Assembly: GCF_020740795.1 (NCBI RefSeq)
Contig: NC_067285.1
Coordinates: 40,894,511-40,958,510, forward strand
Reading direction: 5' to 3'
Source: Apus apus
Lineage: Eukaryota > Chordata > Aves > Apodiformes > Apodidae
DNA length: 64,000 nt
Shown here: one piece after another, positions 25,003-48,592 of the stretch
How positions within the stretch are numbered: the stretch's first letter is position 1
How the letters are laid out: each line of letters begins with the position of its first letter
Made by a program: the position numbers and the translations under genes
Notes under the pieces: model-generated
Database searches by the model: none
What the model was told of the DNA's origin: nothing
The model's input: the letters and a program-made list of their open reading frames with translations, nothing else

Positions 25003-26068
25003 GCTGCAGGGTTGCTGGTGCTGTCTGCGGGAGACTGGGCTGACTCCTCCAGCAGAGGTTCAGAGCCAGGCACTTCCTACTTTCCTCTTGGAGCTCCCTG
25101 CTGTTCTTGATGAACACATCACCCTTTGGGCCAGGCGCTCCCTGCCCAGCTCAGCGCTGCTGTCACTTCCCTGGCACAGGCTGCAGGCAGAGCTGTGGCT
25201 GGGACAGGAGGCAGGGAAGGCAGAGAAGCCCCAGAGAAGCCTCAGCTCCCAGAGACACTGGAGGGGCAGGCAGAGCCCAAGGGCAGAGCCGCTGCCGGGG
25301 CTCAGCAGCATCCTCAGCCAGGAGGGAGGTGCTGCTCCTCACACCTGGGCCTCAGCTTGGGTGGCTTCATGGAGCTTGCACAGGCTCCTGCTGGGCACCC
25401 ATCATGGCCAGGCTGTGGGGTGAGCTTCACGTCTGCTGTGGGCAGGAAGGGACCTGAGGAGCTCTGGAGGCTTTTGCTGACTGCATTCTGTCCTTGGTGG
25501 TGAGGAGGCAAAGGCTGAAATCCTTCCTTTGCTATTCCTTGATGCCCAGCAGAAGCTTCCAGGCTCAGGCAAGGTGGGAAGAGCAAGTGCCTCTCAGTCG
25601 TGTCAGGCCTGTCCTCTTGGAAAGAGCTGGATATGGAGCTCAGAAAGGCCCCCTCCCTCTGGGGGCTGTGAGCCAGCAAGTGCTGGTGCAGCTGGAGTTG
25701 CACAAGTGTGTGGAAAGAGAGTCTGTGCTCCCAGAGGTCTCTGTCCCCCGTGTCATCAGGTGCTGTTCTCCTGCACCCCAGGACAAAGACCTGAGGGCTT
25801 TCACCTCCTGGTCACGTTGGATCCTGCCAGAGCAGGCCAGCCTGGGGTGAGGGGCTGTGAGCAGCCTGATCTGGAGCCTCCCCCCGTGCTGGCACCTGCA
25901 GTTCAGCCCTGGCCTTGGGCTGCACTGTTGGCCACCAGGCCTGGGGGAGCCTGAGGTGGCTTCCTGGGGTGAGTGGGGACCTGCCTGGTCCCTGCAGCCT
26001 GGCCTGGTGCTTGGCAGGCTCTGCCTGAGCCTGTCACCCCTGGGGCACCTGCTCTGCTGCCCTTCCTT
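25003..26068. repeat. Downstream segment of unit 1 (repeated at 34,040 and 41,572)
   Basis: 1.06 kb lying beyond the 3' end of HSD copy 1. It is repeated with only scattered changes at 34,040-35,098 and 41,572-42,630. It is GC-rich with no retroelement signature I recognise. Open frames of 116-185 codons appear in several frames at once, as expected from stop-poor GC-rich DNA, and none looks like a known protein. After 26,068 unit 1 departs from units 2 and 3 until about 26,866. Confidence 0.85.
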
Positions 26069-26865
26069 GGGAGCTGTTGGGCAACACCCCTTGTCCTCCC
26101 CTGTGGCACCTGGTGTACCTCCCTCCCCCAAGAATCCCTCCTCTGCTGCTTCCCTGCACATGGGCTGGGAAGAGCAGGGCTGGGAAGGTAAAGCACAGGA
26201 TCAGACAGGGATGTTGTTGCTGCAGCATCTTCCAGTCAGCGAGGAGGGGAATATATAAACCCTCAGCATGGTGCATGTTTCAAGAGATGGAAAGAAAAAA
26301 ATATGTGGAGGCACGTGTATGATCCAGTGTCTGCATGGGTGTAACTTTGTGCTGTGATGAATGTGATAACTAGTCAAAATGAAGCTGCATTCAGGATTTT
26401 CCAGGTGTTCAGGCCTCCTCCTGCACTGTCCACAGGTACAGAAGCCCTGTGGACTTCAACTCACCCCCCTGGCCCAGCACAACCTTGCTGTTAATCTTTG
26501 ATACCCAGATCTGACTCATGGAGACTGAACCAAACAGACTGCAGAATTTTCATTAGGTTGGCCCAACTTATTCTGCATCCTCATGTCTCAAATCACATTT
26601 TCTAGCATGCATGAAGTGCAGGAGGGCACCCAGGAACTTGTAGAGAAACATGACACTGTTCTCACAAGAAGGTGTTTTAAAGGTGCCTGGAAATTACAGA
26701 TGAACAGGGAGGGTGAGGGGTATATGACTTGATACCATATCGTAAATGCACCTCTAGGAGCTGGTTATGACTTTCAGTGCCAAGTTTCACAGCTTGGTGT
26801 TAAAGAATTGTGTTTATTGGGAATAAGGCAGGGTGATGGAGCCATTGCATAATTGATGTCACTAG
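26069..26865. other. Unit 1-specific stretch below HSD copy 1
   Basis: About 0.8 kb found only in unit 1. Units 2 and 3 instead have a roughly 100 bp sequence here that ends in GATGACATCACTAGGGATTCC. Contains the presumed copy 1 poly(A) signal at 26,813-26,818. No gene seen. Confidence 0.6.
26813..26818 (-). terminator. Poly(A) signal, HSD copy 1
   Basis: TTTATT on the plus strand (AATAAA on the transcript), 540 bp below the copy 1 stop codon. Units 2 and 3 have the same hexamer at the matching place. Confidence 0.6.
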
Positions 26866-27357
26866 GGATTCCATGACATCCAAGCCTGTATCGTTTCAGG
26901 TTCCCACCACAACAGCACAGGGAAACGTGTGTGGTCAACACAGCACAGCTTTCTGCATTCAGAAAGAGGAACTGAGGTGCAACAGGCCACCCACCTCCTC
27001 TGTCCACTGCTCAGGGATGAGCCCAGATGAAGGGGTTCTCAGGCAATCCCTTTCTCCCCTCTGGGAGGCAGCTGTGCTGGGCCACAGAGGGGCTTGGTGG
27101 GAATTCCTGTTGCCTCAGCACCAGGAGATGGAGGCGATGGACCTCCAGCCCTTCAGGCCCTGGAGATGCATTTCTGCTGGGTGAACTCTCCTTGTGATGC
27201 AGGCATGTCCCTGCTGCAGGTGTGGGATAAACCCTTAGGAAATGGTGGCCTGGAAGCATCTGCCTTAGTTCTGCTCTGGATCCAACCAGCTGGGCTGTGC
27301 TCAGCCAGCTTCTGTTTTCACCCGTGCCACTGGGAAGGGAGAATCCATCTCCACTTT

Positions 27358-30300
27358 TCACTGGGTGCTTCTCTGCCCAACAATTGCATCAAATTTGACT
27401 TCAGTCATCTTCCTCAGCAAATTCAGGGCACGTTCTGGAAACACCCTGGAAGAGATAATAACATGATGTAGGATGTGCAATTTAAATCATGGGAGCAAGG
27501 GGCACTGCAGGTGAGGGAAGAGCTGGTCTGGGAGCAGGATGTGTGCACACACACATAGCCTGGCACCAAGACTTAAACCAGAAGTTATTTCCAAAGAACC
27601 CACAGCCCACACCAGATCAGTCTGACTGCTTTAACTCCCATCCCATCCATCTCCTCTTATGACAGTTCCAGGACAGGCAGCTTCCTGACATGATTTAGGT
27701 TGCAATATTGCTGCAAAATACAGACACTTGGATTTGCCTTTTTTCATGCTTTCCAAACCTTATCTGGTTAATTTGGGGAATTCTTGGAGGTGAAAAAACA
27801 AACAAGCCACCCCAAACATCTTTACACCTCCTTGCAAAGGGAAATTTGGAGTTAGATCCAAGTTTGCTGGCTTTCACAAAGAAGAAATTGCCATGTGTTT
27901 AATGAGGTTCTGGAGAAGTTAACTGGATACCTAACTCAGGTGATGGGCTATTCATTCTATGTTTGGAAGCTGAGCTCTGAGGAAGACACTTCCTCAGCAG
28001 AGCAGCTACACTGGATATTAAAGATGTGTGAGAGGACAGATCTTGCTTTACATGTCAGAGAGAAGCAATAGAGCCCTTTGGAAGCAATTTTTCAAGCCTC
28101 TGTGATCTCAGTCTTTGGTGTTGACATGAAAGAAACAAAACAGCAAGAAGCAGCAAGTCCTCAGCTCTTCCTGGAATACTTTAATACACTGGGGCTGCTG
28201 GTTCAGAGAAAGTGTTTGGGTTTTTTTTGCAGGCAGAAGGGAAGTAGCAATCTGTGAAGAAAAAGTGTTCTGTTGTTCTGCCCCTCCCTGCCCATCAGCC
28301 TGCAGAGGGAGACCTGTGAGAGCACTCAACAGAGCCCTTCCCTGGAATGTGTCCGCTGTTGTCGTTAGAAAGATCCAAAGTGCTGTTTGGTTAATTGGTG
28401 AAGTGTTCTTAAACAAAACAGTCTTGAATCACATGGAACACGTTCTGAGGGTTGTACACTCAGCGAGTTATATTTGAGAGACAGGGAGTGTGTGTTGAGT
28501 TGGTGGTTTGGCTTTTTCTACTTACCTTTCAAAAAATAATGCAAGGCGTTGATTTGATGGAACAAAAACCATCTTCTGGTTGGTCAGTATCCCCTCCATC
28601 AGGGCCTCTGCAACTTCTTCAGCCTCCAGAATCTTCCCAAGCCTGCAGAGGAAAGCACCAGGTCAGAGCTGGGGTGGCAGAGCAGGGCTGGGGCTGGCTG
28701 AGGGAGGACGGGTCCCAGGGGCACCAGCTCGGGGCTCCCACGTGCAGCCATGAGCACAGATCCTCCTGAGCCCCTCGTGCCCACTGTCTTTCCACAGGCA
28801 GCTGGGATGCAGGGCCTAAAGCTGGGGCTGATCTCTAGTGCCTGCAGAGAGGGCAGCACAGGGAAGCAGAGCTGGGCACTTACCTCGTGCTGGGGTTTTT
28901 GACAAACCCCGTGTTTATAAACACTGGACACAGACACGTGGTTTTGATTCCATCCTTTCCCAGGGCAGACAGCTCCTCTGTCAGAGCTTTATGAAATCCA
29001 ACTGCAGCAAACTTGCTTGAGCTGCAGGAGGGGAAAAAGCACAACTGAGAAGGCAGAAATACTGCTTCTAGCTCTCTAGAAAGGGGAACGGGGAGGGGCT
29101 GTTTGCCAAGGGGTGTGTAGGGAGAGGACAAGGGGCAATGGCCTTAAACTAGAGCAGGGCAGATTGAGGTTGGATATCGGGAAGAAGTTCTTTACACTGA
29201 GGGTGGTGGATCACTGAACAGGCTGCCCAGAGAGGTGCTGGAGGCCCCATCCCTGGAGAGATTCAAGGTCAGGCTTGACCAGGCTCTGACCAACTTGATC
29301 TAGCTAAAAATGTCCCTGTGCACTGCAGGGGGGCTGGACTAGGTGGCCTTTAAAGGTCCTTTCCAACCCCACAAGTTCTGGGATTGTGTGAAAAGATCAC
29401 ACAGTAGTGACTAGGAGGCAAAAACCCCCAAAGTAGGGCAGCTGAGAGACATCTCAGAGACTAATCCTGAGCTTCCCTGTGCCACAGTGCAGTGCTGGGT
29501 TGGGTACTGCTGCTTTGGGCAGCAGCTGTGACACACAGAGCAGGTGGCTTTCAGAAACAGTCACCTTAGTTGCAAACAGATGAATGTCAGGCATGTTTAG
29601 AAAATTCTAACTCCTGTGCATAACTCAATGAGCTTTCCTCTTTCACATGTGAGCAGATTCTCAGAAGGAATGGAGCCCGAGTCAGGAAAAATGAAGAAGG
29701 ATGGGCAGAGTAGAAATGGAGAACAACCTTCCACCATTTCTTGTAGCAAACAGGAGCATTGTGAGAGTCTGGAAATAGAGGAGCATGCTGCATGCCAAGG
29801 GTGAAGAACATTAATGTCACAGGAATTGATGTGGGTGAGGAGTGTAATGAACTGCAAACAGAACAAGAGCACCTGTGGACTGGCTGCTGTGGATCTGGAC
29901 AGTGTGACCCCACTGAAAGCCCTGGCTGGGGAGCTCTCCCTTTGCTAGCAGCAACTGGCTCTCTGAGAAGGGAGTTTTCCATGGGGAAGGTGCTCTCACT
30001 GGAGCCACTGGTACAGAGGGCTCCATCTGGTGCAGAAGGACAATCCAGACCTGCGTGCCTCTGCTCACACTCAGAGATTCAGTTGCTTCTAGCAGAAGGA
30101 GCAATGCAGTGACCTCTCAGGTGATCCAGCTTGGTTGCTCACAGCACAGGGAGTATCAGCAGGTCTTTCCCTTCTAAAGGGAACTGCACAGGCAAGAAGC
30201 AGTGTCATCTCCTGATGGCAGAGGTATTTCTACACACTAGGCACCACCACAAGGGCAGAAGGAGGAGAAGCCACTCGTTAGGGCTTGACCTGACAACAGC

Positions 30301-32793
30301 ACAACAACTCCCAGAAGCACTCACTGCTTTCTAAGATGGAGAAGGGAAGAGGGCACCTGTGTTGCCAGGCAAAAGTCTGGTGAGGGAGAGAGAAAAGAGC
30401 AGCTTTTGTTAGTTGGTGTGTGAAGGAATATTGTGGTTGCTCTGTGCTTGCTGATGGAGAAGGCACCATTTAAAACAAAGAGATGAAGACTGTAAAACCA
30501 CTTACCAATAAGCCACCATGAAAGAAATCACAAAATGACCTGCTGCTGAAGCCACCGTGACGATGTGACCGTAGTTGTTCTTCATCATGGTTGGCAGAAA
30601 AGCTCTTGTGGTCTTGAAAGTCATTGGAACCAAGAGGCAACCATGGGGGAAGGAGGAAAAGAACAGTGTTTTCTTAGCCAGGTCCAACACTGACCCTGAC
30701 TAATCACTAATGCAGTGGCTAATGCTTTGTGGCAACCTTTGTTCCCAACAGGCATATTTTGGGAAGTCAGCTGTAAACAGCCGATCCACACACCCTTCCT
30801 GTGCTGCTTTTTAGTTTTCAGATGTCAGCAGCAATGCTGCCCATGTCCCACCACATCATGTTCAGTAAAACACTCATCCTTCTGCAGCTTCTCCTCTCTG
30901 CTGCTGCAAACAGCAAGTCCTGAACAGCTGAAACCCTCCCACCCTGTAACCCCTGCTGGCAGCTGCCCTACCTTGTGGCTCATCTGTGGGCCTGCAAAGA
31001 CCCAAGTCCCAGCTCTGACAGCCCAGCTGTGTCTCCTGGGCTCAGCTTGCTGGAAAAAAGCTGGGAGCAAGGCTGCAGAGATGAGAGAAGCAAATCATGA
31101 GGAAAAGACAGGATTGAAGGCAGGCTCAGAAGTAGTTGGAGGAGCCAGAAGGCAAAGAGGTGACAGAGCAAGGTGTAAACTGGGAGAGGAGAAGTGCCCA
31201 GGGAGACTGGCTGGGTTGGGAGAAGGGGTACAAAGATGGAGGTGGCCCTTACCCACATGTGAGCAAGGATGTTGACTTCAAACATTCTTTCAATCTGGTG
31301 GTCCTGAGTGGAGAGCAGGTCGGCAGCTGTAATCACACCTGCATTGTTCACCAGGATGGTGACATCCCCAACGTCCTTCTTCACCTGTTGGACAGAATAA
31401 AACCAGAAAGGGGCCTGTCACTTGATATCAAAAACATGCCAGGCTAGGGAAGATGAGAAGCAATTTCATTCCTAACCTTGTTTCTTCGAGAGGGAGGAAG
31501 ATCAGCCACATTTCCAGATGTGGCAGGAACTGTGCAGTAGCACCACAAAATCTGGATTGGATCTGCTGCTTCTCCCTTAGTTACTGCCAGTATTTTTAGC
31601 CCCCCCCCCCCCAGCTCAGAAGTGCCACTGCACTTGTTTTCCTGGCTCCCCTGAAAGCTGAGCACCTTGGGCTGAGCCCTTGGACATGCCCCTGCTCCCC
31701 TACCTTCTCGGCAGCGCTGTAGATCTCCTCCCTCTTGCTGCAGTCCACCAGGAAGGTCTGCACGGGGGCTCCCAGCCTCTGGCACTCTGCTGCCGTGTCC
31801 TCAAGGCCGTGCTGTTGGAGGCAGGGCAGACAGACACTCGTGTGCAGCCGGGCCCTGCCTGCCTGGGGCTGCTCGGGCACCGCAGGGCACCAGGGACAGC
31901 CTGAAGGTTGGTCCTGGTCAGGGAACCCTGCCGAGCCCCAGGACAGCTCCTGCTGCCCAGGGAAAGAGCTGCAGCCAGGGGCTGAGAGAGGACTAGGATC
32001 ACAGGGCCAGACAGTGGGGGGTTGGAAGAGAGCTCTGGAGATCATCTAGTCCGACCCCCCTGCCAGAGCAGGATCCCCATGAGCAGATCCCACAGGAACA
32101 CGTCCAGGTGGGTTTGGAAGGGCTCCAGGGATGGGGACTCCACAGCCTCCCTGGGCAGCCTGTCCCAGGGCTCTGGTGCCCTCTGAGCAAACAAGTATTT
32201 TCTCATATTCAGGTTAAAGCTCCTTTGTTCCAGTGTGTGCCCCTTGTCCTGTCCCTGGACGCCCCCGAGAAGGGTCTGGCCCCGTCCTCCCGCCAGCCCG
32301 GGCAGCTCCGCAGCCCCGCTGAGCCCCGCGCTCCTCCCGCAGCCGCTCTCGGAGGGGCTGCTCGTCCCAGCTCGGCCAGGAGCCCCGAGCAGCCGTGGGG
32401 CCAGACGCCCGGGGCCGTGGGGCCAGACCCAGGGGCCGCGGGGCTCGGCTGGCGCTCAGCACCCAGCGCGGGGCCGGGCGGGACGGGGCGATGCGGGGCA
32501 GGTCCGTGTGCCCGCCCGGCCCCGGCCCCGGCCCCGGCCCCGGCCCCGCAGGGAAGGGCCCCGCACGCCCGCGGCTCCGCTACCTTGTTGATGTCCCACA
32601 GCACCAGCCGGCTCCCGCGCTTGGCGAACTCCAGGGCGGCCGCTCTGCCCACGCCGTGGCCCGCGCCCGTGACGAGCACCAGCTCCCCGCGGACAGACTT
32701 CCTGCGGGCGGGCAGCAGCAGCTTCGCCAGCGCCTCCAGGTAGGAGTAGAGCAGCGTGGCCAGGAACAGCAGCAGCTCCGCCAGCGCCCGCAT
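27358..32793 (-). CDS. HSD17B11/13: HSD17B11/13-like 17-beta-hydroxysteroid dehydrogenase, copy 1 (mosaic)
   Basis: Seven exons: 32793-32584, 31811-31704, 31384-31253, 30612-30506, 29021-28884, 28642-28526 and 27445-27358. All have GT/AG borders and consistent phase, giving 299 aa (human HSD17B11 and HSD17B13 are each 300). Residues 2-20 are a hydrophobic N-terminal helix, the lipid-droplet/ER anchor of the family. The cofactor motif TGAGHGVG is at 42-49, NNAG at 119-122, and the catalytic set is S172, Y185 and K189 (YCSSK across the exon 4/5 junction). Family role: NAD-dependent short-chain dehydrogenases on lipid droplets that oxidise steroid or retinoid alcohols. From memory, several motifs (YSYLE, AAEC, KNPSTR) look more like HSD17B13 than HSD17B11; bird orthology is unresolved. 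It differs from copies 2 and 3 at 15 residues: V178, I179 and 13 changes between 261 and 285. It has no stop or frameshift. Confidence 0.93.
29125..29395 (+). mobile_element. CR1 LINE 3' end in intron 4 of HSD copy 1
   Basis: A sense CR1 end: GACAAGGGGCAATGGCCTTA, then GAGGTTGGATATCGGGAAGA, then GGTCCTTTCCAACCCCAC. It is present in all three units, but this copy keeps about 60 bp (TGAACAGGCTGCCCAGAG region) that is deleted in both others. It is opposite in direction to the host gene. Confidence 0.88.
32003..32262 (-). mobile_element. CR1 LINE fragment in intron 1 of HSD copy 1
   Basis: Reverse-oriented CR1 3' end: GGGTTGGAAGAGAGCTCTGG, CATCTAGTCCGACCCCCCTG, GGCTCCAGGGATGGGGACTC. It grades into GC-rich sequence on the exon 1 side. 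Shared by all units. Confidence 0.85.
32517..32548 (-). repeat. GGGGCC hexanucleotide tract, HSD copy 1 intron 1 (5 units)
   Basis: The plus strand reads (CGGCCC)5 plus CG, so the transcript-sense strand is (GGGGCC)n. The tract starts 36 bp downstream of the exon 1 splice donor. It is pure with no interruptions. Confidence 0.95.
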
Positions 32794-32799
32794 GGCTGC

Positions 32800-33240
32800 C
32801 CCGGCGCTGCCCGGGTGAGCCCGGCTCGCTCTCCCCAGCGGGACGGGCTCCTTGCCCCAGGACCGACCCGCCCGCCCCGCCATGGCCGCCCCCGGCCCGC
32901 CCAGCATGGCCGCCCCCGCACGGAGCCCCGCGCCGCCATCTCTCCCCGCGGCAGCCAATCAGAGCGCGGCGTTAGCCCAGGGGGGCGGGCCCTTAGGAGG
33001 CCGGCGGGCCTCAGGCGCTGGGGATTGGCCCGCCCTCCGGCCAATCAGAGGAGGAGGGATCCTCCCCGCCCGCCGGGCGGGGCCGCGTGTGACGCGCTCG
33101 GGGCTTGTCCCGGCCCCGCTGGCGCCCGCAGCGCTCGTGCTGCGCGCGGGTCGGCCCCGCACGGGGAGCTCCGGTGGTGCCGCCCCGGACCCCGCTGGTG
33201 TCCAAGCCCAGCTCCCCCAGCGCCTGGCTGCTGAGCTTCC
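32800..33240 (-). promoter_or_regulatory. Orphan CpG-island promoter of HSD copy 1
   Basis: GC-rich, CpG-dense DNA immediately upstream of copy 1. It contains CCAAT at 32,955-32,959, inverted CCAAT (ATTGG) at 33,024-33,028 and CCAAT at 33,041-33,045, with a GGGGCGGG GC box between. Spacing and flanks match the CCAAT-ATTGG-CCAAT trio between HSD copy 3 and NUDT9, so this is a duplicated bidirectional promoter that has lost its NUDT9 side. Confidence 0.8.
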
Positions 33241-33262
33241 TGGGGGCCTCGGGAACAGGCAG

Positions 33263-33460
33263 AATCCCCAGGGCTGGAAAAGACCTTGAAGACCCTCAAG
33301 TCCCGCCTGTGACCAACACCCCCACATCTCCAGACCAGGGCACCAAGTGCCGCCTCCAGCCTGTCCTTGAGCACCTCCAGGGACGGTGCCTCCCTGGGCA
33401 GTCCCACCCGATGTCTGATCACCCTCTCCCTGAGGAACAGCTCAACTCACCCTTGTTCTG
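33263..33460 (-). mobile_element. CR1 LINE fragment upstream of HSD copy 1
   Basis: Reverse-oriented CR1 3' region: GGGCTGGAAAAGACCTTGAA through CACCTCCAGGGACGGTGCCT to ATCACCCTCTCCCTGAGGAA. It lies just outside the orphan promoter. The same element is at 40,795-40,990. Confidence 0.82.
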
Positions 33461-33689
33461 GCTTGTGCGGGGGTGTCTGGAGCCTCCACCAGAGCAGGAA
33501 TGTTGGTAGGAAATGGGAGAAAGCTGCTTCCAGGCAGTTTGGCTGCAACAGTGTAACTGCAAGGGTTTGTTGAGAGAGGGTTGCTGCCCTTACTCCTTTG
33601 CTTCTCCTTCAGCAATCCAGAAGAATCATGTTCACCATGTTGCTGAGTGATATTTTGAGCTGCTTTGGGAGAAGTGATGGCTGCACGAA

Positions 33690-33950
33690 CATCTGTCCTC
33701 TGCCCAGGATGAGGGGCAAGAGGCACAAGCTGGAACATGGGAAGTGCCAGTTCAGTGTGAGGAAAAGCTCCTTTAGCAGGAGGGTGAGAGAGCCCTGGGA
33801 CAGGCTGCCCAGGGAGGGTGTGGAGCCCCCTTCTCTGGAGCCATTCCAGAGTCTCCTGTGGAATGTGCTCTGGGCCATCCTGCTTTAGCAGGGAGTTGGA
33901 CGAGATGATCCCTAGAGCTCCCTTCAAAGCCTGACAGGTCTGTGACTCTG
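33690..33950 (+). mobile_element. CR1 LINE fragment at the unit 1/unit 2 boundary
   Basis: Sense CR1 3' region: GATGAGGGGCAAGAGGCACA, then GAGCCCTGGGACAGGCTGCC, then GAGTTGGACGAGATGATCCC. It ends about 90 bp before the start of unit 2. The same element is at 41,222-41,482. Confidence 0.85.
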
Positions 33951-35157
33951 CATGAACATCTGTCCTCTGCCCAGAATCGCTCTCCAGTTCAGATTAGAGC
34001 TGTTGAAAAGGAGTTTATTTTTGTTCTCAGGGTGGCTTGGCTGCAGGGTTGCTGGTGCTGCCTGCGGGAGACTGGGCTGACTCCAGCAGAGGTTCAGAGC
34101 CAGGCCCTTCCTACTTTCCTCTTGGAGCTCCCTGCTGTTCTTGATGAACACATCACCCTTTGGGCCAGGCGCTCCCTGCCCAGCTCAGCGCTGCTGTCAC
34201 TTCCCTGGCACAGGCTGCAGGCAGAGCTGTGGCTGGGACAGGAGGCAGGGAAGGCAGAGAAGCCCCAGAGAAGCCTCAGCTCCCAGAGACACTGGAGGGG
34301 CGGGCAGAGCCCAAGGGCAGAGCCCCTGCCGGGGCTCAGCAGCATCCTCAGCCAGGAGGGAGGTGCTGCTCCTCACACCTGGGCCTCAGCTTGGGTGGCT
34401 TCATGGAGCTTGCACAGGCTCCTGCTGGGCACCCATCATGGCCAGGCTGTGGGGTGAGCTTCATGTCTGCTGTGGGCAGGAAGGGACCTGAGGAGCTCTG
34501 GAGGCTTTTGCTGACTGCATTCTGTCCTTGGTGGTGAGGAGGCAAAGGCTGAAATCCTTCCTTTGCTATTCCTTGATGCCCAGCAGAAGCTTCCAGGCTC
34601 AGGCAAGGTGGGAAGAGCAAGTGCCTCTCAGTTGTGTCAGGCCTGTCCTCTTGGAAAGAGCTGGATATGGAGCTCAGAAAGGCCCCCTCCCTCTGGGGGT
34701 TGTGAGCCAGCAAGTGCTGGTGCAGCTGGAGTTGCACAAGTGTGTGGAAAGAGAGTCTGTGCTCCCAGAGGTCTCTGTCCCCCGTGTCATCAGGTGCTGT
34801 ACTCCTGCACCCCAGGACAAAGACCTGAGGGCTTTCACCTCCTGGTCACGTTGGATCCTGCCAGAGCAGGCCAGCCTGGGGTGAGGGGCTGTGAGCAGCC
34901 TGATCTGGAGCCTCCCCCCGTGCTGGCACCTGCAGTTCAGCCCTGGCCTTGGGCTGCACTGTTGGCCACCAGGCCTGGGGGAGCCTGAGGTGGCTTCCTG
35001 GGGTGAGTGGGGACCTGCCTGGTCCCTGCAGCCTGGCCTGGTGTTTGGCAGGCTCTGCCTGAGCCTGTCACCCCTGGGGCACCTGCTCTGCTGCCCTTGC
35101 TCAGACCTGGTCAGGACTTCCCTTGCTGAAAGACACCTTGGGTTTAGAGAACTGTCT

Positions 35158-35703: not shown

Positions 35704-38700
35704 TCACTGGGTGCTTCTCTGCCCAACAATTGCATCAAACTTGACTTCATTCAGCTTTTTCAGCACATTCAAGGCACGTTCTGGAAACAGCCTGGAAGAG
35801 ATAATAACAGAGGTGGCACTGTGGGTGAGAGAAGAGCTGGTCACACACAGGGACTGGCACCAAGACTTAAACCAGAAGTTATTTCCAAAGAACCCAAAGC
35901 CCACACCAGATCAGTCTGACTGCTTTAACTGCCACCCCACCCATCTCCTATCAGAGTTCCAAGGCCAGTTATCTGCAGGGCAGTGTTGGGGTTGCAATAT
36001 GGCTGCAGGATCCAAGAAGGTTCAAGACTGAGCAGAGACAGGTGGGTACTGAGTGTTTTACACTCTGAAAAGCAGCAGGGCTGAGGAAGGATGAGATGTT
36101 AAAACTGAGCTGCAGTTGCTTCCCTGGGATTTCTTCTCTCATGAGTCACCTCTCTTGCTGTCCTCCTGCCCCAAATGCAGACAAATGAGCCAAGTTTTCC
36201 TCAGGGCTTTTCAGCATTAGGTCTGACTTGTCTACACTTCTGCAGACTTGGACTGTTCACCAGGCAGCACTCGGAGATGCAAAAAGACTGAAAAGCTTTT
36301 TCCCTCTGCCTGGTGTCAGGTTTTGCCAACAAGGTATCACCACATCTTCCAGGAAATACCATGGAAGGTAACTGAGAAGTGAAGGTAGTTGTTGTGATGT
36401 GAATGCCAGATTTGGAACCTGAGCTCTGGTAAAAAAGCCTCCTCAGCAGAGCTCCTCTGCTTGATGTTAAGGATGTGTGGGAGAACAAGTCTGGCTTTTT
36501 CCACGGCAGAGAGAGGCAAGAGAGCCCTTTTAAAGCCACTTTCCCAGCCTCTGAAACCTCAGTGTTTGGTGCTGACATGAAGAAACAAACACAAATCAAC
36601 TGCAGGTCCTCAGCTCTTTCTGGAACTGCTGCCAGGGCTGCTGGCTGAGAGAAACTGTTGTTTGCAGCCCCATGGGACACAGCAACCTGTGAACAAAAGT
36701 ATCCTCTTGTTCTGCTTCTCAGCTTGTAGAGCACTTCTGTACTGAGAAGAGTTTGGTGCAGAAAGTGGGTCACAAAGACCTAGGAGAGGGCTCAGAAAAA
36801 TCTCTGTCTTGCCTGCTCTTGCCATTAGAAAGAACCACTGCTGTTTCACCACCTTGTGTGTTCCTCTCCTACAAAAATGCTTCAGGTGGGGGCTTGTTTA
36901 AGAAATTATCTTCTCTCCTGCAGACAGTTCCTTATTTTATAGTTCTCACAGGCATATTGATGTACAAATCTGCACTGATGAGTAACTGAGCATAGGGATG
37001 TCAAACACTGAAGTTAATACCAAATAAATGAAACTGGATTGAATGGGGTCCATTCTGAATTGAGAACTGAATTCAGAGCTGCCCAGCTCTCATTCCAGGA
37101 TTTCTCTATCTGGCCATTTCGTACCTTTTACTGTCATGAGTGCAAAATACAAAAAAAGGCTGACAACTTAACCTTGAATCAGATGTTGCAACTCGGAGGG
37201 CTGCACGCTCAGTGAGCACTGACAGTTTTTCCCTCCTCGTCTATTTTTCATTTTTTTCCTACTTACATTTCAGAAAGCAACGCAAAGCTTAGATGTGGTG
37301 GCACAAAAACCATCTTCTGGTTGGTCAGTATCCCCTCCATCAGGGCCTCTGCAACTTCTTCAGCCTCCAGAATCTTCCCAAGCCTGCAGAGGAAAGCACC
37401 AGGTCAGAGCTGGGGTGGCAGAGCAGGGCTGGGGCTGGCTGAGGGAGGACGGGTCCCAGGGGCACCAGCTCAGGGCTCCCATGTGCAGCCATGAGCACAG
37501 ATCCTCCTGAGCCCCTCGTGCCCACTGTCTTTCCACAGGCAGCTGGGATGCAGGGCCTAAAGCTGGGGCTGATCTCTAGTGCCTGCAGAGAGGGCAGCAC
37601 AGGGAAGCAGAGCTGGGCACTTACCTCGTGCTGGGGTTTTTGACAAACCCCGTGTTTATAAACACTGGACACAGACACGTGGTTTTGATTCCATCCTTTC
37701 CCAGGGCAGACAGCTCCTCTGTCAGAGCTTTATGAAATCCAACTGCAGCAAACTTGCTTGAGCTGCAGGAGGGGAAAAAGCACAACTGAGAAGGCAGAAA
37801 TACTGCTTCTAGCTCTCTAGACAGGGGAACGGGGAGGGGCTGTTTGCCAAGGGGTGTGTAGGGAGAGGACAAGGGGCAATGGCCTTAAACTAGAGCAGGG
37901 CAGATTGAGGTTGGATATCAGGAAGAAGTTCTTTACCCTGAGGGTGGTGGGTCAGGCTTGACCAGGCTCTGACCAACCTGATCTAGCTAAAAATGTCCCT
38001 GTGCACTGCAGGGGGGCTGGACTAGGTGGCCTTTAAAGGTCCTTTCCAACCCCACACGTTCTGGGATTGTGTGAATGGCCTAAAAGATCACACAGTAGTG
38101 ACTAGGAGGCAAAAACCCCCAAAGTAGTGCAGCTGAGAGACATCTCAGAGACTAATCCTGAGCTTCCCTGTGCCACAGTGCAGTGCTGGGTTGGACACTG
38201 CTGCTTTGGGCAGCAGCTGTGACACACAGAGCAGGTGGCTTTGAGGAAAAGAGTGCAGCATGGAGTCTAAGTGAACTCCAAAAAAAACCCAGACCATCAA
38301 TGGACTGACTGCTATGGATCTGGACAGTGTGACTGTAAAACCACTTACCAATAAGCCACCATGAAAGAAGTCCCAAAATGACCTGCTGCTGAAGCCACCG
38401 TGACAATGTGACCGTAGTTGTTCTTCATCATGGTTGGCAGAAAAGCTCTGGTGGTCTTGAAAGTCATTGGAACCAAGAGGCAACCAAGGGGGGAAGAAGG
38501 AAAAGAACAGTGTTTTCTTAGCCAGGTGCAACACTGACCCTGACTATCTCTAATGAAGTGAGAAATGTTCTGGCTAATGCTCAGTGCTGCACTGCACCTT
38601 GGATTCTGAGAGCCACAAAGACCCCTGTTCACTGGGGTCTTGGCTCAAGGAGCCAAGAGGGGAGATGGTGACACAGCAGGGTGTAAACTGGGAGAGGAGA

Positions 38701-40325
38701 AGTGCCCAGGGAGACTGGCTGGGTTGGGGGAAGGGGTACAAAGATGGGGGTGGCCCTTACCCACATGTGAGCAAGGATGTTGACTTCAAACATTCTTTCA
38801 ATCTGGTGGTCCTGAGTGGAGAGCAGGTCGGCAGCTGTAATCACACCTGCATTGTTCACCAGGATGGTGACATCCCCAACGTCCTTCTTCACCTGTTGGA
38901 CAGAATAAAACCAGAAAAGGGCCTGTCACTTGTTATCAAAAACATGCCAGGCTAGGGAAGATGAGAAGCAATTTCATTCCTAACCTCGTTTCTTCGAGAG
39001 GGAGGAAGATCAGCCACATTTCCAGATGTGGCAGGAACTGTGCGGTAGCACCACAAAATCTGGATTGGATCTGATGCTTCTCCCTTAGTTACTGCCAGTA
39101 TTTTTAGCCCCCTCCCCCCCAGCTCAGAAGTGCCACTGCACTTGTTTTCCTGGCTCCCCTGAAAGCTGAGCACCTTGGGCTGAGCCCTTGGACATGCCCC
39201 TGCTCCCCTACCTTCTCGGCAGCGCTGTAGATCTCCTCCCTCTTGCTGCAGTCCACCAGGAAGGTCTGCACGGGGGCTCCCAGCCTCTGGCACTCTGCTG
39301 CCGTGTCCTCAAGGCCGTGCTGTTGGAGGCAGGGCAGACAGACACTCTTGTGCAGCCGGGCCCTGCCTGCCTGGGGCTGCTCGGGCACCGCAGGGCACCA
39401 GGGACAGCCTGAAGGTTGGTCCTGGTCAGGGAACCCTGCCGAGCCCCAGGACAGCTCCTGCTGCCCAGGGAAAGAGCTGCAGCCAGGGGCTGAGAGAGGA
39501 CTAGGATCACAGGACCAGAGAATGGGGGGTTGGAAGGGAGCTCTGGAGATCATCTAGTCTGACCCCCCTGCCAGAGCAGGATCCCCATGAGCAGATCCCA
39601 CAGGAACACGTCCAGGTGGGTTTGGAAGGGCTCCAGGGATGGGGACTCCACAGCCTCCCTGGGCAGCCTGTCCCAGGGCTCTGGTGCCCTCTGAGCAAAC
39701 AAGTACTTTCTCATATTCAGGTTAAAGCTCCTGTGTTCCAGTGTGTGCCCCTTGTCCTGTCCCTGGACGCCCCCGAGAAGGGTCTGGCCCCGTCCTCCCG
39801 CCAGCCCGGGCAGCTCCGCAGCCCCGCTGAGCCCCGCGCTCCTCCCGCAGCCGCTCTCGGAGGGGCTGCTCGTCCCAGCTCGGCCAGGAGCCCCGAGCAG
39901 CCGTGGGGCCAGACCCCCGGGGCCGTGGGGCCAGACCCAGGGGCCGCGGGGCTCGGCTGGCGCTCAGCACCCAGCGCGGGGCCGGGCGGGACGGGGCGAT
40001 GCGGGGCAGGTCCGTGTGCCCGCCCGGCCCCGGCCCCGGCCCCGGCCCCGGCCCCGGCCCCGGCCCCGGCCCCGGCCCCGCAGGGAAGGGCCCCGCACGC
40101 CCGCGGCTCCGCTACCTTGTTGATGTCCCACAGCACCAGCCGGCTCCCGCGCTTGGCGAACTCCAGGGCGGCCGCTCTGCCCACGCCGTGGCCCGCGCCC
40201 GTGACGAGCACCAGCTCCCCGCGGACAGACTTCCTGCGGGCGGGCAGCAGCAGCTTCGCCAGCGCCTCCAGGTAGGAGTAGAGCAGCGTGGCCAGGAACA
40301 GCAGCAGCTCCGCCAGCGCCCGCAT
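35704..40325 (-). CDS. HSD17B11/13: HSD17B11/13-like 17-beta-hydroxysteroid dehydrogenase, copy 2
   Basis: Exons 40325-40116, 39319-39212, 38892-38761, 38455-38349, 37762-37625, 37383-37267 and 35791-35704: 210, 108, 132, 107, 138, 117 and 88 bp, summing to 900 bp (299 aa plus stop). All junctions conform to GT/AG. It has an N-terminal hydrophobic anchor (2-20), TGAGHGVG (42-49), NNAG (119-122) and S172/Y185/K189, so the enzyme should be competent. The C-terminus is LFPERALN...GQRSTQ. The protein is identical to copy 3, with one synonymous change seen in exon 5. Its promoter is an orphan CpG island with CCAAT boxes, backed by CR1 debris instead of NUDT9. The start was chosen at MRALAEL, where the family begins; the in-frame ATGs 55 and fewer codons upstream lie in promoter-like sequence. 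Confidence 0.94.
37865..38075 (+). mobile_element. CR1 LINE 3' end in intron 4 of HSD copy 2
   Basis: The same insertion as in copy 1, so it predates the duplications. It has an internal deletion after GAGGGTGGTGGGTCAGGCTT that is shared with copy 3, which groups units 2 and 3 together. Confidence 0.88.
39511..39770 (-). mobile_element. CR1 LINE fragment in intron 1 of HSD copy 2
   Basis: The counterpart of the 32,003-32,262 element with a handful of substitutions (for example GGTTGGAAGGGAGCTCTGG). Confidence 0.85.
40025..40080 (-). repeat. GGGGCC hexanucleotide tract, HSD copy 2 intron 1 (9 units)
   Basis: Nine pure units plus two bases, the longest of the three copies. The 24 bp excess over copy 1 fully explains the change in unit offset between exon 2 and exon 1 (7,508 to 7,532). 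Confidence 0.95.
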
Positions 40326-40770: not shown

Positions 40771-40794
40771 CCTGGGGGCCTCGGGAACAGGCAG

Positions 40795-40990: not shown

Positions 40991-41221
40991 TGGCTTGTGC
41001 GGGGGTGTCTGGAGCCTCCACCAGAGCAGGAATGTTGGTAGGAAATGGGAGAAAGCTGCTTCCAGGCAGTTTGGCTGCAACAGTGTAACTGCAAGGGTTT
41101 GTTGAGAGAGGGTTGCTGCCCTTACTCCTTTGCTTCTCCTTCAGCAATCCAGAAGAATCATGTTCACCATGTTGCTGAGTGATATTTTGAGCTGCTTTGG
41201 GAGGAGTGATGGCTGCACGAA

Positions 41222-42695: not shown

Positions 42696-43237
42696 TGGAA
42701 TGAGGAGTGTTGATGGTGCTCATGCATAAGTGATGACATCACTAGGGATTCCATGACATCCAAGCCTGTATCGTTTCAGGTTCCCACCACAACAGCACAG
42801 GGAAACGTGTGTGGTCAACACAGCACAGCTTTCTGCATTCAGAAAGAGGAACTGAGGTGCAACAGGCCACCCACCTCCTCTGTCCACTGCTCAGGGATGA
42901 GCCCAGATGAAGGGGTTCTCAGGCAATCCCTTTCTCCCCTCTGGGAGGCAGCTGTGCTGGGCCACAGAGGGGCTTGGTGGGAATTCCTGTTGCCTCAGCA
43001 CCAGGAGATGGAGGCGATGGACCTCCAGCCCTTCAGGCCCTGGAGATGCATTTCTGCTGGGTGAACTCTCCTTGTGATGCAGGCATGTCCCTGCTGCAGG
43101 TGTGGGATAAACCCTTAGGAAATGGTGGCCTGGAAGCATCTGCCTTAGTTCTGCTCTGGATCCAACCAGCTGGGCTGTGCTCAGCCAGCTTCTGTTTTCA
43201 CCCGTGCCACTGGGAAGGGAGAATCCATCTCCACTTT

Positions 43238-46200
43238 TCACTGGGTGCTTCTCTGCCCAACAATTGCATCAAACTTGACTTCATTCAGCTTTTTCAGCAC
43301 ATTCAAGGCACGTTCTGGAAACAGCCTGGAAGAGATAATAACAGAGGTGGCACTGTGGGTGAGAGAAGAGCTGGTCACACACAGGGACTGGCACCAAGAC
43401 TTAAACCAGAAGTTATTTCCAAAGAACCCAAAGCCCACACCAGATCAGTCTGACTGCTTTAACTGCCACCCCACCCATCTCCTATCAGAGTTCCAAGGCC
43501 AGTTATCTGCAGGGCAGTGTTGGGGTTGCAATATGGCTGCAGGATCCAAGAAGGTTCAAGACTGAGCAGAGACAGGTGGGTACTGAGTGTTTTACACTCT
43601 GAAAAGCAGCAGGGCTGAGGAAGGATGAGATGTTAAAACTGAGCTGCAGTTGCTTCCCTGGGATTTCTTCTCTCATGAGTCACCTCTCTTGCTGTCCTCC
43701 TGCCCCAAATGCAGACAAATGAGCCAAGTTTTCCTCAGGGCTTTTCAGCATTAGGTCTGACTTGTCTACACTTCTGCAGACTTGGACTGTTCACCAGGCA
43801 GCACTCGGAGATGCAAAAAGACTGAAAAGCTTTTTCCCTCTGCCTGGTGTCAGGTTTTGCCAACAAGGTATCACCACATCTTCCAGGAAATACCATGGAA
43901 GGTAACTGAGAAGTGAAGGTAGTTGTTGTGATGTGAATGCCAGATTTGGAACCTGAGCTCTGGTAAAAAAGCCTCCTCAGCAGAGCTCCTCTGCTTGATG
44001 TTAAGGATGTGTGGGAGAACAAGTCTGGCTTTTTCCACGGCAGAGAGAGGCAAGAGAGCCCTTTTAAAGCCACTTTCCCAGCCTCTGAAACCTCAGTGTT
44101 TGGTGCTGACATGAAGAAACAAACACAAATCAACTGCAGGTCCTCAGCTCTTTCTGGAACTGCTGCCAGGGCTGCTGGCTGAGAGAAACTGTTGTTTGCA
44201 GCCCCATGGGACACAGCAACCTGTGAACAAAAGTATCCTCTTGTTCTGCTTCTCAGCTTGTAGAGCACTTCTGTACTGAGAAGAGTTTGGTGCAGAAAGT
44301 GGGTCACAAAGACCTAGGAGAGGGCTCAGAAAAATCTCTGTCTTGCCTGCTCTTGCCATTAGAAAGAACCACTGCTGTTTCACCACCTTGTGTGTTCCTC
44401 TCCTACAAAAATGCTTCAGGTGGGGGCTTGTTTAAGAAATTATCTTCTCTCCTGCAGACAGTTCCTTATTTTATAGTTCTCACAGGCATATTGATGTACA
44501 AATCTGCACTGATGAGTAACTGAGCATAGGGATGTCAAACACTGAAGTTAATACCAAATAAATGAAACTGGATTGAATGGGGTCCATTCTGAATTGAGAA
44601 CTGAATTCAGAGCTGCCCAGCTCTCATTCCAGGGTTTCTCTATCTGGCCATTTCGTACCTTTTACTGTCATGAGTGCAAAATACAAAAAAAGGCTGACAA
44701 CTTAACCTTGAATCAGATGTTGCAACTCGGAGGGCTGCACGCTCAGACAGTGAGCACTGACAGTTTTTCCCTCCTCATCTATTTTACATTTTTTTCCTAC
44801 TTACATTTCAGAAAGCAACGCAAAGCTTAGATGTGGTGGCACAAAAACCATCTTCTGGTTGGTCAGTATCCCCTCCATCAGGGCCTCTGCAACTTCTTCA
44901 GCCTCCAGAATCTTCCCAAGCCTGCAGAGGAAAGCACCAGGTCAGAGCTGGGGTGGCAGAGCAGGGCTGGGGCTGGCTGAGGGAGGACGGGTCCCAGGGG
45001 CACCAGCTCGGGGCTCCCACGTGCAGCCATGAGCACAGATCCTCCTGAGCCCCTCATGCCCACTGTCTTTCCACAGGCAGCTGGGATGCAGGGCCTAAAG
45101 CTGGGGCTGATCTCTAGTGCCTGCAGAGAGGGCAGCACAGGGAAGCAGAGCTGGGCACTTACCTTGTGCTGGGGTTTTTGACAAACCCCGTGTTTATAAA
45201 CACTGGACACAGACACGTGGTTTTGATTCCATCCTTTCCCAGGGCAGACAGCTCCTCTGTCAGAGCTTTATGAAATCCAACTGCAGCAAACTTGCTTGAG
45301 CTGCAAGAGGGGAAAAAGCACAACTGAGAAGGCAGAAATACTGCTTCTAGCTCTCTAGACAGGGGAACGGGGAGGGGCTGTTTGCCAAGGGGTGTGTAGG
45401 GAGAGGACAAGGGGCAATGGCCTTAAACTAGAGCAGGGCAGATTGAGGTTGGATATCAGGAAGAAGTTCTTTACCCTGAGGGTGGTGGGTCAGGCTTGAC
45501 CAGGCTCTGACCAACCTGATCTAGCTAAAAATGTCCCTGTGCACTGCAGGGGGGCTGGACTAGGTGGCCTTTAAAGGTCCTTTCCAACCCCACACGTTCT
45601 GGGATTGTGTGAATGGCCTAAAAGATCACACAGTAGTGACTAGGAGGCAAAAACCCCCAAAGTAGTGCAGCTGAGAGACATCTCAGAGACTAATCCTGAG
45701 CTTCCCTGTGCCACAGTGCAGTGCTGGGTTGGACACTGCTGCTTTGGGCAGCAGCTGTGACACACAGAGCAGGTGGCTTTGAGGAAAAGAGTGCAGCATG
45801 GAGTCTAAGTGAACTCCAAAAAAAACCCAGACCATCAGTGGACTGACTGCTATGGATCTGGACAGTGTGACTGTAAAACCACTTACCAATAAGCCACCAT
45901 GAAAGAAGTCCCAAAATGACCTGCTGCTGAAGCCACCGTGACAATGTGACCGTAGTTGTTCTTCATCATGGTTGGCAGAAAAGCTCTGGTGGTCTTGAAA
46001 GTCATTGGAACCAAGAGGCAACCAAGGGGGGAAGGAGGAAAAGAACAGTGTTTTCTTAGCCAGGTGCAACACTGACCCTGACTATCTCTAATGAAGTGAG
46101 AAATGTTCTGGCTAATGCTCAGTGCTGCACTGCACCTTGGATTCTGAGAGCCACAAAGACCCCTGTTCACTGGGGTCTTGGCTCAAGGAGCCAAGAGGGG

Positions 46201-47867
46201 AGGTGGTGACACAGCAGGGTGTAAACTGGGAGAGAAGTGCCCAGGGAGACTGGCTGGGTTGGGGGAAGGGGTACAAAGATGGGGGTGGCCCTTACCCACA
46301 TGTGAGCAAGGATGTTGACTTCAAACATTCTTTCAATCTGGTGGTCCTGAGTGGAGAGCAGGTCGGCAGCTGTAATCACACCTGCATTGTTCACCAGGAT
46401 GGTGACATCCCCAACGTCCTTCTTCACCTGTTGGACAGAATAACACCAGAAAAGGGCCTGTCACTTGTTATCAAAAACATGCCAGGCTAGGGAAGATGAG
46501 AAGCAATTTCATTCCTAACCTCGTTTCTTCGAGGGGGAGGAAGATCAGCCACATTTCCAGATGTGGCAGGAACTGTGCAGTAGCACCACAAAATCTGGAT
46601 TGGATCTGCTGCTTCTCCCTTAGTTACTGCCAGTATTTTTAGCCCCGTCCTCCCCAGCTCAGAAGTGCCACTGCACTTGTTTTCCTGGCTCCCCTGAAAG
46701 CTGAGCACCTTGGGCTGAGCCCTTGGACATGCCCCTGCTCCCCTACCTTCTCGGCAGCGCTGTAGATCTCCTCCCTCTTGCTGCAGTCCACCAGGAAGGT
46801 CTGCACGGGGGCTCCCAGCCTCTGGCACTCTGCTGCCGTGTCCTCAAGGCCGTGCTGTTGGAGGCAGGGCAGACAGACACTCGTGTGCAGCCGGGCCCTG
46901 CCTGCCTGGGGCTGCTCGGGCACCGCAGGGCACCAGGGACAGCCTGAAGGTTGGTCCTGGTCAGGGAACCCTGCCGAGCCCCAGGACAGCTCCTGCTGCC
47001 CAGGGAAAGAGCTGCAGCCAGGGGCTGAGAGAGGACTAGGATCACAGGGCCAGACAGTGGGGGGTTGGAAGGGAGCTCTGGAGATCATCTAGTCCGACCC
47101 CCCTGCCAGAGCAGGATCCCCATGAGCAGATCCCACAGGAACACGTCCAGGTGGGTTTGGAAGGGCTCCAGGGATGGGGACTCCACAGCCTCCCTGGGCA
47201 GCCTGTCCCAGGGCTCTGGTGCCCTCTGAGCAAACAAGTATTTTCTCATATTCAGGTTAAAGCTCCTGTGTTCCAGTGTGTGCCCCTTGTCCTGTCCCTG
47301 GACGCCCCCGAGAAGGGTCTGGCCCCGTCCTCCCGCCAGCCCGGGCAGCTCCGCAGCCCCGCTGAGCCCCGCGCTCCTCCCGCAGCCGCTCTCGGAGGGG
47401 CTGCTCGTCCCAGCTCGGCCAGGAGCCCCGAGCAGCCGTGGGGCCAGACGCCCGGGGCTGTGGGGCCAGACCCCCTGGGGCCAGACCCCCGGGGCCGTGG
47501 GGCCAGACCCAGGGGCCGCGGGGCTCGGCTGGCGCTCAGCACCCAGCGCGGGGCCGGGCGGGACGGGGCGATGCGGGGCAGGTCCGTGTGCCCGCCCGGC
47601 CCCGGCCCCGGCCCCGGCCCCGCAGGGAAGGGCCCCGCACGCCCGCGGCTCCGCTACCTTGTTGATGTCCCACAGCACCAGCCGGCTCCCGCGCTTGGCG
47701 AACTCCAGGGCGGCCGCTCTGCCCACGCCGTGGCCCGCGCCCGTGACGAGCACCAGCTCCCCGCGGACAGACTTCCTGCGGGCGGGCAGCAGCAGCTTCG
47801 CCAGCGCCTCCAGGTAGGAGTAGAGCAGCGTGGCCAGGAACAGCAGCAGCTCCGCCAGCGCCCGCAT
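43238..47867 (-). CDS. HSD17B11/13: HSD17B11/13-like 17-beta-hydroxysteroid dehydrogenase, copy 3 (NUDT9-proximal)
   Basis: Exons 47867-47658, 46854-46747, 46427-46296, 45993-45887, 45300-45163, 44921-44805 and 43325-43238; 299 aa, complete, all splice sites canonical. It has the same motifs as copy 2: hydrophobic N-terminus, [13 protein letters not shown]172/Y185/K189. It starts 726 bp from the NUDT9 start codon on the opposite strand and shares that CpG island, an arrangement expected of the ancestral single-copy locus. The intron 1 GGGGCC tract is shortest here (4 units), and a nearby GC-rich 20-bp-class motif is expanded (about 47,440-47,510). As with the other copies, assignment to HSD17B13 rather than HSD17B11 rests on remembered motif similarity and needs a tree. 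Confidence 0.94.
45405..45613 (+). mobile_element. CR1 LINE 3' end in intron 4 of HSD copy 3
   Basis: Same insertion and same internal deletion as the copy in unit 2. Confidence 0.88.
47045..47305 (-). mobile_element. CR1 LINE fragment in intron 1 of HSD copy 3
   Basis: The counterpart of the elements at 32,003 and 39,511. It lies between exon 2 and the GC-rich part of intron 1. Confidence 0.85.
47597..47622 (-). repeat. GGGGCC hexanucleotide tract, HSD copy 3 intron 1 (4 units)
   Basis: Four pure units plus two bases at the same place in the presumed ancestral copy. Confidence 0.95.
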
Positions 47868-48592
47868 GGCTGCCCCGGCGCTGCCCGGGTGAGCCCGGCT
47901 CGCTCTCCCCAGCGGGACGGGCTCCTTGCCCCAGGACCCGCCCGCCCCGCCGCCCTCGCCCTTCTGACTGCCGAACCGAGCCGGGCCCTGCGGCGTCCGC
48001 CGGCGGCGCCGCCTTCCCGGGGCGGGCCCGTGTGTGCGGGATGCCCGCCTCGGCGCCGCTCCCGCCGGGCGCGTTCCCTTTCCCCGCCGCCGGGAGGCGC
48101 CCGGGGCAGCCTGACCGCGCTCCGCCCGCCCCGGCAGCCGCCGGCTGCGGCGGGAACCGCCCGGCCCCGCCCCGCCATCCCGCCCCGCCCCGCCCCGGCA
48201 GCCCGCGGAGGGCAGCGCCGGTCCGAGCGGTCCCGCTCGCGGCCACGCCCCGCAGCGCCGCCGCAGCCAATCGGAGAGCGGCGTTTGGCCGGGGGGGCGG
48301 GTCTATGGGCTGGCGGCGCTCGCGATTGGTGGCTTGTCGGCCAATAAGAGGCGAGTTTGTGGAGAGGGTGAGGGCGGTTGCGGGGCAGAGTAGGGCGACT
48401 GTGGGGGCGGTCTGCTCGGTACCGGGTCGGTCCGGTCCGTACCGGGTCGGCTCCTCTGGGCGCGGGGGCTGCAGCTCGGGCCGCTCCAAGGCCTCGCCCA
48501 GCCGGTCCAGCGTCCCAGGCTGGGCCTCGGCCCGGCCGCGCGGAGGGCCTGGCGCGGCCGCCGCTCCCGCCGCGCTGAGGCCGCTGCCGTCG
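47868..48592. promoter_or_regulatory. Bidirectional CpG-island promoter between HSD copy 3 and NUDT9
   Basis: 725 bp between two divergent start codons, strongly GC-rich and CpG-dense. CCAAT at 48,267-48,271 is followed by a GGGGGGGCGGG GC box, then ATTGG at 48,325-48,329 and CCAAT at 48,341-48,345. Paired CCAAT boxes in both directions plus GC boxes are typical of NF-Y/Sp1-driven housekeeping bidirectional promoters. Direction-specific start sites cannot be read from the sequence. Confidence 0.8.

Follow-up and report, generated by a model that had tools for sequence, protein, structure and literature searches.

A mosaic array of three HSD17B11/13-type genes in Apus apus, with two protein types and two upstream regions

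Introduction

HSD17B11 and HSD17B13 are lipid-droplet dehydrogenases that carry the label SDR16C. The genes described here form a tandem array of this type in the bird Apus apus, and lie within a 64-kb stretch of assembly GCF_020740795.1 (contig NC_067285.1, here C5; C5:40894511-40958510) that was analysed as a whole and is referred to as the window. The human gene order is KLHL8, HSD17B13, HSD17B11 and NUDT9, and the order in the window is presumably equivalent; human HSD17B11 adjoins NUDT9, as the third bird copy does. The array encodes two proteins, referred to as the A-type and the B-type, behind two kinds of upstream region, also termed A-type and B-type, and its copies are a mosaic of nearly identical and strongly diverged blocks.

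HSD17B13 is a drug target in liver disease, and its natural substrate and its behavior at the membrane are described as still being worked out (PMC10449848). The same account assigns the segment P260-N286 to a membrane-anchoring helix-turn-helix, states that the dog enzyme gains estradiol activity and has a more open pocket when its G177/V178 are replaced by the human E177/G178, and names I179 as a ligand contact at which HSD17B11 differs (PMC10449848). A published table has one hsd17b11 and no hsd17b13 for chicken, with one of each for Xenopus (PMC7064643), and a single HSD17B11 locus is given for zebra finch in a further source (PMC2865489). No description of a bird array was found in the literature searched on HSD17B11 and HSD17B13 in chicken and other birds or on duplication of these genes, and a literature search that combined HSD17B11, HSD17B13 and gene conversion found nothing.

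Three intact genes in tandem

All three copies are on the minus strand, and each has a coding sequence of 900 nt, for 299 amino acids and a stop codon, that is split into seven exons of 210, 108, 132, 107, 138, 117, and 88 nt in every copy. The genes are as follows.

27358..32793, minus strand: copy 1, A-type protein with A-type upstream region (GT-AG exon model, open 299-aa frame, PDB matches); exons 32584-32793, 31704-31811, 31253-31384, 30506-30612, 28884-29021, 28526-28642, 27358-27445
35704..40325, minus strand: copy 2, B-type protein with A-type upstream region (exon model, upstream identity with copy 1); exons 40116-40325, 39212-39319, 38761-38892, 38349-38455, 37625-37762, 37267-37383, 35704-35791
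43238..47867, minus strand: copy 3, B-type protein with B-type upstream region (exon model); exons 47658-47867, 46747-46854, 46296-46427, 45887-45993, 45163-45300, 44805-44921, 43238-43325

The ends GT...AG are found in 18/18 introns, and the three rebuilt coding sequences contain no frameshift or internal stop. The proteins have the motifs TGAGHGVG and NNAG, together with S172, Y185, and K189 (checked in copies 1 and 2; the copy 3 protein is the same as that of copy 2), so that the features expected of an SDR enzyme, namely TGxxxGxG, NNAG, and the Ser-Tyr-Lys triad, are all present. The sequence features of the membrane anchor are likewise found, as a hydrophobic N-terminus to P28 and as P260 and P274 in copies 1 and 2. 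All three copies should be lipid-droplet NAD-dependent dehydrogenases of SDR16C type with an equal catalytic core and N-terminal anchor.

An initial annotation of this DNA had described a tandem triplication of HSD17B11/13 type with three intact seven-exon genes, equal exon lengths, and complete catalytic residues, and the gene models and the Pfam and PDB matches bear this out. It was also right to assign one and the same protein to copies 2 and 3, as they differ at one of 900 coding bases and the change is synonymous, and the extent that it proposed (25003-47935) is close to that of the repeat homology, which runs from 25003 in the 3' flank of copy 1 to 47938-47951 in the 5' untranslated region (UTR) of copy 3. 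Its view that the introns are near-identical is correct for introns 1, 2, and 5, with lengths of 772/796/803, 319/319/319, and 241/241/241 nt in copies 1/2/3. It does not apply to introns 3, 4, and 6, where the lengths differ (640/305/302, 1484/586/586, and 1080/1475/1479 nt) and large parts of copy 1 are unalignable with copies 2/3.

Intron 1 contains a 6-nt tandem repeat of 5.7, 9.7, and 4.7 units and a 22-nt array of 2.5, 2.5, and 4.5 units across the three copies. It also has, at an equal place in all copies, a repeat fragment that we take to be CR1-like (32019-32174, 39527-39682, and 47062-47217), an inverted relative of which is present in each spacer (33789-33931 and 41321-41463).

A mosaic of near-identical and diverged blocks

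Copies 2 and 3 are close to each other, with 35 differences in 6341 aligned sites (0.55%). Copies 1 and 2 differ at 504 of the 5854 sites aligned within 25003-32881, and these differences are spread very unevenly: blocks in which copy 1 is 97-100% like copies 2/3 are interleaved with blocks that are 15-44% different or unalignable. The limits of the blocks come from a two-state segmentation, in which unrelated sequence that was forced into alignment contributes to the high values. Along copy 1 the percentage difference is 0.85 in 25003-26064, 31.3 in 26065-26853, 0 in 26854-27393, 14.9 in 27394-27559, 1.3 in 27560-27636, 36.9 in 27637-28561, 1.07 in 28562-29551, 37.5 in 29552-29889, 3.0 in 29890-30705, 43.5 in 30706-31171, and 0.92 in 31172-33990. 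The part of intron 6 that BLAST aligns (27962-28281) has 73% identity. The principal elements of the mosaic in copy 1 are listed below.

25003..26064, no strand assigned: homogenized 3'-flank tract, with counterparts from 34040 and 41572
26854..27393, minus strand: homogenized tract that takes in the last 11 codons (289-299, end of exon 7) and continues past the stop codon; the three copies show no mismatch at the 538 sites aligned
27394..28561, minus strand: divergent island with codons 259-288 and intron 6, defined by segmentation and exon differences; 13 of the 15 residue differences
28562..29551, minus strand: homogenized tract comprising intron 5 and exon 5 together with the adjoining parts of exon 6 (its first part) and intron 4; the copies differ by about 1.1%
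30506..30612, minus strand: exon 4 (V178/I179), between the diverged introns 3 and 4
31172..32864, minus strand: homogenized tract with exons 3-1 and the proximal 5' UTR; no mismatch among the three copies in 32408-32864, gaps excluded

The island has its counterparts at 35740-37302 in copy 2 and 43274-44840 in copy 3, and contains one short similar stretch (27560-27636). The counterparts of tract 26854-27393 are at 35199-35739 and 42731-43273, and the difference here is lower than the roughly 1% found in the other tracts. Its complete lack of mismatches points either to very recent conversion or to constraint.

The runs of identity are much longer than expected from the overall level of difference. 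In 1000 permutations the longest identical run never exceeded 158 sites for copy 1 against copy 2 and 150 sites for copy 1 against copy 3, compared with observed runs of 538 and 540 sites. Mismatches are clustered to a similar extent, with the variance/mean of mismatches in 100-site bins at 23.9 (null maximum 1.5) and 24.1 (null maximum 1.65) for the same two pairs. Identity runs that are over-long for otherwise diverged paralogues, as in a gene-conversion mosaic, are therefore a feature of copy 1; for copies 2 and 3 the longest run, at 2055 sites (null maximum 1706), is also beyond chance. Across the 21 variable sites of the tract from exon 3 to the 5' UTR, the odd one out is copy 1 at nine, copy 2 at eight, and copy 3 at four. 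This shifting relationship argues for repeated exchange among the three copies and not for a simple recent triplication.

Two kinds of upstream region

The similarity of copy 3 to the other copies ends 71-84 bases upstream of its start codon (47938-47951), and beyond this point the array contains two different regions.

32865..34039, no strand assigned: A-type upstream region and the spacer that separates copy 1 from copy 2; both recur at about 40397-41571, between copies 2 and 3
47952..48592, no strand assigned: CpG island that forms the B-type upstream region of copy 3, in back-to-back arrangement with a candidate NUDT9 first exon

The A-type regions of copies 1 and 2 differ at nine of 1126 compared sites (32865-33990), and copy 2 is thus a B-type coding region joined to an A-type upstream region. 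The A-type and B-type regions are both CpG islands and have ATTGG, CCAAT, and ATTGG boxes in a common order, and their local alignment score of 77 exceeds the maximum of 57 in 500 dinucleotide shuffles. They are diverged homologues, from which it follows that the original duplication included the upstream region. Both presumably act as promoters, and the order of protein and upstream types along the array is A/A, B/A, and B/B.

Where the two proteins differ

Copies 1 and 2 differ at 23 coding bases, 4 in exon 4 and 19 in codons 259-288, and at 15 residues, which are 178, 179, and 13 positions within 261-285. Their numbering is equal to that of HSD17B13 at P28, S33, S172, Y185, K189, P260, and P274, which allows both places to be compared with the mammalian enzyme. 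Residues 178/179 are V/I in copy 1 and G/T in copies 2/3. Residue 177 is F in both the A- and B-type proteins, unlike human and dog HSD17B13, and the mammalian 177/178 effect is consequently not directly transferable. Within the main island, the coding portion (codons 259-288) agrees to within two codons with the HSD17B13 anchor P260-N286, an agreement that was noticed post hoc. In an amphipathic-helix test, the moment of the first anchor helix is 0.51 in copy 1 (p 0.18) and 0.09 in copies 2/3 (p 0.84), neither of which is beyond shuffles, and that of the second is 0.68 in copy 1 (p 0.028) and 0.63 in copies 2/3 (p 0.037). The sequence thus suggests that the A- and B-type proteins may differ in membrane anchoring.

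The islands could have persisted through a neutral barrier, in which copy-specific insertions and the unalignable introns 3, 4, and 6 halt conversion and the C-terminal segment is weakly constrained. We judge this account to have a somewhat better than even chance of being right, and such a barrier explains much of the island pattern. Several tracts end at unalignable edges, for example at 26064/26065 and 29551/29552. Codons 259-288 have 13 nonsynonymous changes in 68.7 sites and 6 synonymous changes in 21.3 sites, giving nonsynonymous (dN) and synonymous (dS) divergences of 0.22 and 0.35; there is no excess of amino-acid change over neutrality in these codons (Fisher p = 0.37), and the test is indistinguishable from the neutral expectation. 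The barrier fits less well with a tract that ends 36 nt inside exon 6, which is 49 nt before the BLAST alignment ends at 28513, and with 27394-27715, an alignable stretch most of which has stayed divergent (14.9% for 114 sites, 1.3% for 77, and then higher). The stop within exon 6, before the intron edge, may be read as a weak hint of selection.

In the selective alternative, which would be added to the conversion history set out below, conversion continues but is rejected where the A- and B-type proteins must differ, at the segments that correspond to the substrate-selectivity peptide (178-179) and the membrane anchor of HSD17B13. We regard this as possible but doubtful. It draws on the restriction of all the residue differences (15/15) to 178-179 and 261-285, on the fit of the island to the published anchor, and on the conversion tracts on either side, which extend into exons 6 and 7. 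Apart from the neutral dN and dS values and the post hoc nature of the fit, it is opposed by the variability of the same segment in mammals, as human and dog HSD17B13 are identical at 13/17 positions in 259-275 compared with 214/249 over 27-275, and by exon 4, where there are just 2 synonymous and 2 nonsynonymous changes. Slightly less likely again is the fuller proposal that selection separates the modules 178-179 and 260-286 while unequal exchange has re-paired the coding types with two promoters. If true, the combination of two proteins with two promoters, of which three out of four pairings are present, would be a natural module swap in a human liver-disease enzyme family.

Origin of the array

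The history that we consider probable involves an old A/B pair that was homogenized in blocks by gene conversion and then gained a hybrid third gene by unequal crossover. It would begin with a tandem pair, A beside the Kelch gene and B beside NUDT9, each with its own promoter. Conversion would have evened A and B in the 3' flank, the 3' UTR and exon 7 end, exons 5-6, and exons 1-3, with exon 4 evened less completely and the blocks between them keeping the old divergence. A later unequal crossover in the identical exon-1/5'-UTR block, most plausibly at 32408-32864, would have produced a hybrid of B coding region and A-type upstream region, and hence the order A-protein/A-promoter, B-protein/A-promoter, and B-protein/B-promoter. 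A crossover in the 3' blocks would have given A, A, B instead. The first two variable sites below 32408-32864 (32407 and 32225) group copy 2 with copy 3, as a crossover there predicts. The A- and B-type proteins would then differ in the opening of the substrate pocket (178-179) and in membrane seating (260-286), and copies 2 and 3 would differ in expression and not in protein.

The age of the pair can be estimated from the BLAST-alignable part of intron 6, where 65 of the 302 ungapped sites are mismatched (21.5%). With the bird neutral rate of about 2e-9 per site and year, this places the A/B split, roughly, at tens of millions of years, and an A/B pair is thus to be expected in other birds. 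Copies 2 and 3 would have split, or last been homogenized, far more recently. To the initial annotation, near-identical introns meant a very recent array or one that conversion keeps uniform. This suits copies 2 and 3 but not copy 1, which appears to be an old paralogue evened in blocks.

A number of observations weigh against this history. Sites 32198, 32052, 32014, 32012, 32006, and 31840 group copy 1 with copy 3, which calls for later exchange or some other history as well. The three main tracts have near-equal differences (0.85, 1.07, and 0.92%), which could also result from a single duplication that afterwards received copies of old blocks, and conversion may have run in either direction. 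Between copies 2 and 3 the clustering index is 1.46, below the null maximum of 1.73, and the contrast between the exon-7/intron-6 block (3/1563) and the spacer (9/1126) reaches only p = 0.035. The age of the A/B pair is read from one genome, and the single HSD17B11 of chicken and zebra finch, from older annotations, is at odds with it unless the array has been collapsed there. The 0.55% difference between copies 2 and 3 could, finally, also be that of allelic sequence.

This last point is the basis of a further alternative, an assembly artefact: the true locus would hold A and B only, and copy 2 would be a second pass of a repeat loop via the other haplotype. Looping through the near-identical 5' block would yield the order A, B, B and a second A-type spacer, and in our judgement the 0.55% fits a plausible allelic range. 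The window has no N runs, however, and the assembly (1.10 Gb in 110 contigs) has no stray copy elsewhere in the protein search; the repeat counts in intron 1 are copy-specific, and the 5' block (31172-32864) is less than 2 kb, which would be short for long reads. We consider the artefact unlikely. As for copy 1, a plain haplotype duplication is ruled out by the unalignable introns and the diverged upstream regions. A simple recent triplication of one gene would suit the large blocks at about 1% difference and the shared protein of copies 2 and 3, but it is contradicted for copy 1 by the unalignable introns, the two diverged upstream regions, and the 37% mismatch of the exon 6-7 island (to which forced alignment contributes), and is very improbable.

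Family identity

The copy 1 protein matches Pfam adh_short at 8.8e-49. In the PDB search copy 1 finds HSD17B13 at 2.1e-126, HSD17B11 at 5.8e-116, and the next protein at 2.4e-30, and copy 2 finds the same two at 1e-126 and 1.8e-115, with the next at 1.5e-33. When residues 27-275 are compared, copy 1 is identical to human HSD17B11 at 170/249 positions and to human HSD17B13 at 158/249, and the two human proteins are identical to each other at 166/249. At the 55 sites that separate HSD17B13 from HSD17B11, copy 1 is 11-like at 21 and 13-like at 16.

A tree of six sequences only, rooted with an SDR16C5-like protein of this bird, places the array outside mammalian HSD17B11 and HSD17B13 with a bootstrap of 65. 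In the approximately unbiased (AU) test, p is 0.367 for a grouping with HSD17B13, 0.122 with HSD17B11, and 0.723 outside both. No placement is rejected by the AU, Kishino-Hasegawa, or Shimodaira-Hasegawa test, and the resampling of estimated log-likelihoods (RELL) gives the HSD17B11 grouping a proportion of 0.0498, just outside the 95% set. Human HSD17B13 was represented by PDB 8g9v, in which four residues are changed to those of dog (PMC10449848), after these had been set to the stated human ones. With unmodified 8g9v the bootstrap is 69, the AU values are 0.086/0.351/0.743, and the conclusion is the same. Gene conversion blurs the orthology with HSD17B11 or HSD17B13 further, and on the present sequences HSD17B11/13-type is the best name for the array genes.

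Genomic setting

A protein search of the whole assembly, in which counts for large families are lower bounds, gave at least 34 exon matches (55/55 candidates scored), with 21 in the array at 68-97% identity and 13 elsewhere at 33-54%. The array appears to be the sole set of close HSD17B11/13-type genes in this assembly. The search also revealed a tandem pair of SDR genes at C3:117158807-117164691 and 117175195-117179378, which we take to be SDR16C5-like. The neighbors of the array are given below.

71..5372, minus strand: Kelch-repeat exons, by domain match; consistent with KLHL8
48593..48720, plus strand: candidate NUDT9 first exon, with the start codon at 48593 and an approximate end, named by position and direction only
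53806..54171, plus strand: open frame with the NUDT9 Nudix-box exon, the match spanning frame residues 62-114

The name KLHL8 is presumed from synteny. The NUDT9-type Nudix exon, near 54.0 kb on the plus strand, matches PDB 1q33 at 1.6e-20. Inverted interspersed repeats pair 19324-19765 with 63246-63684 (92%) and 56101-56868 with 62816-63581 (75%). An Rfam scan of the window gave 0 matches at the gathering threshold, and a scan of viral contigs with the copy 2 protein gave six pattern matches, 0 of which were confirmed.

Significance and comparison with known systems

The array had been seen by the initial annotation as a source of extra dosage, which is too simple for a locus with two proteins that differ in two short segments and with two upstream regions. 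It offers two intact proteins that are alike outside two short segments implicated in activity and anchoring, and one protein behind two upstream regions, so that module and promoter effects are testable without design. It also suggests that single HSD17B11 annotations in birds may hide a mosaic array in some species. Gene conversion, unequal crossover, and the re-pairing of upstream regions are each known; as far as the literature searched shows, their combination with cuts at the substrate and membrane modules of this enzyme family is new.

The bird proteins share with HSD17B11 and HSD17B13 their length, the catalytic triad, the N-terminal hydrophobic anchor to P28, the P260/P274 helix-turn-helix, and the NUDT9 neighbor. 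They differ in being encoded by three copies and in being about as far from either enzyme as human HSD17B11 is from HSD17B13. As with duplicated genes in general, the exchange of DNA fragments would keep divergence between the copies low, but in the bird array it would also have split the upstream from the coding region. A parallel is offered by the primate L/M opsin genes, which are described as tandem and homogenized by conversion with functional exons left different (PMC3213168). For the opsins, selection against homogenization is argued from population data (PMC3213168), whereas in the bird array such selection is only possible.

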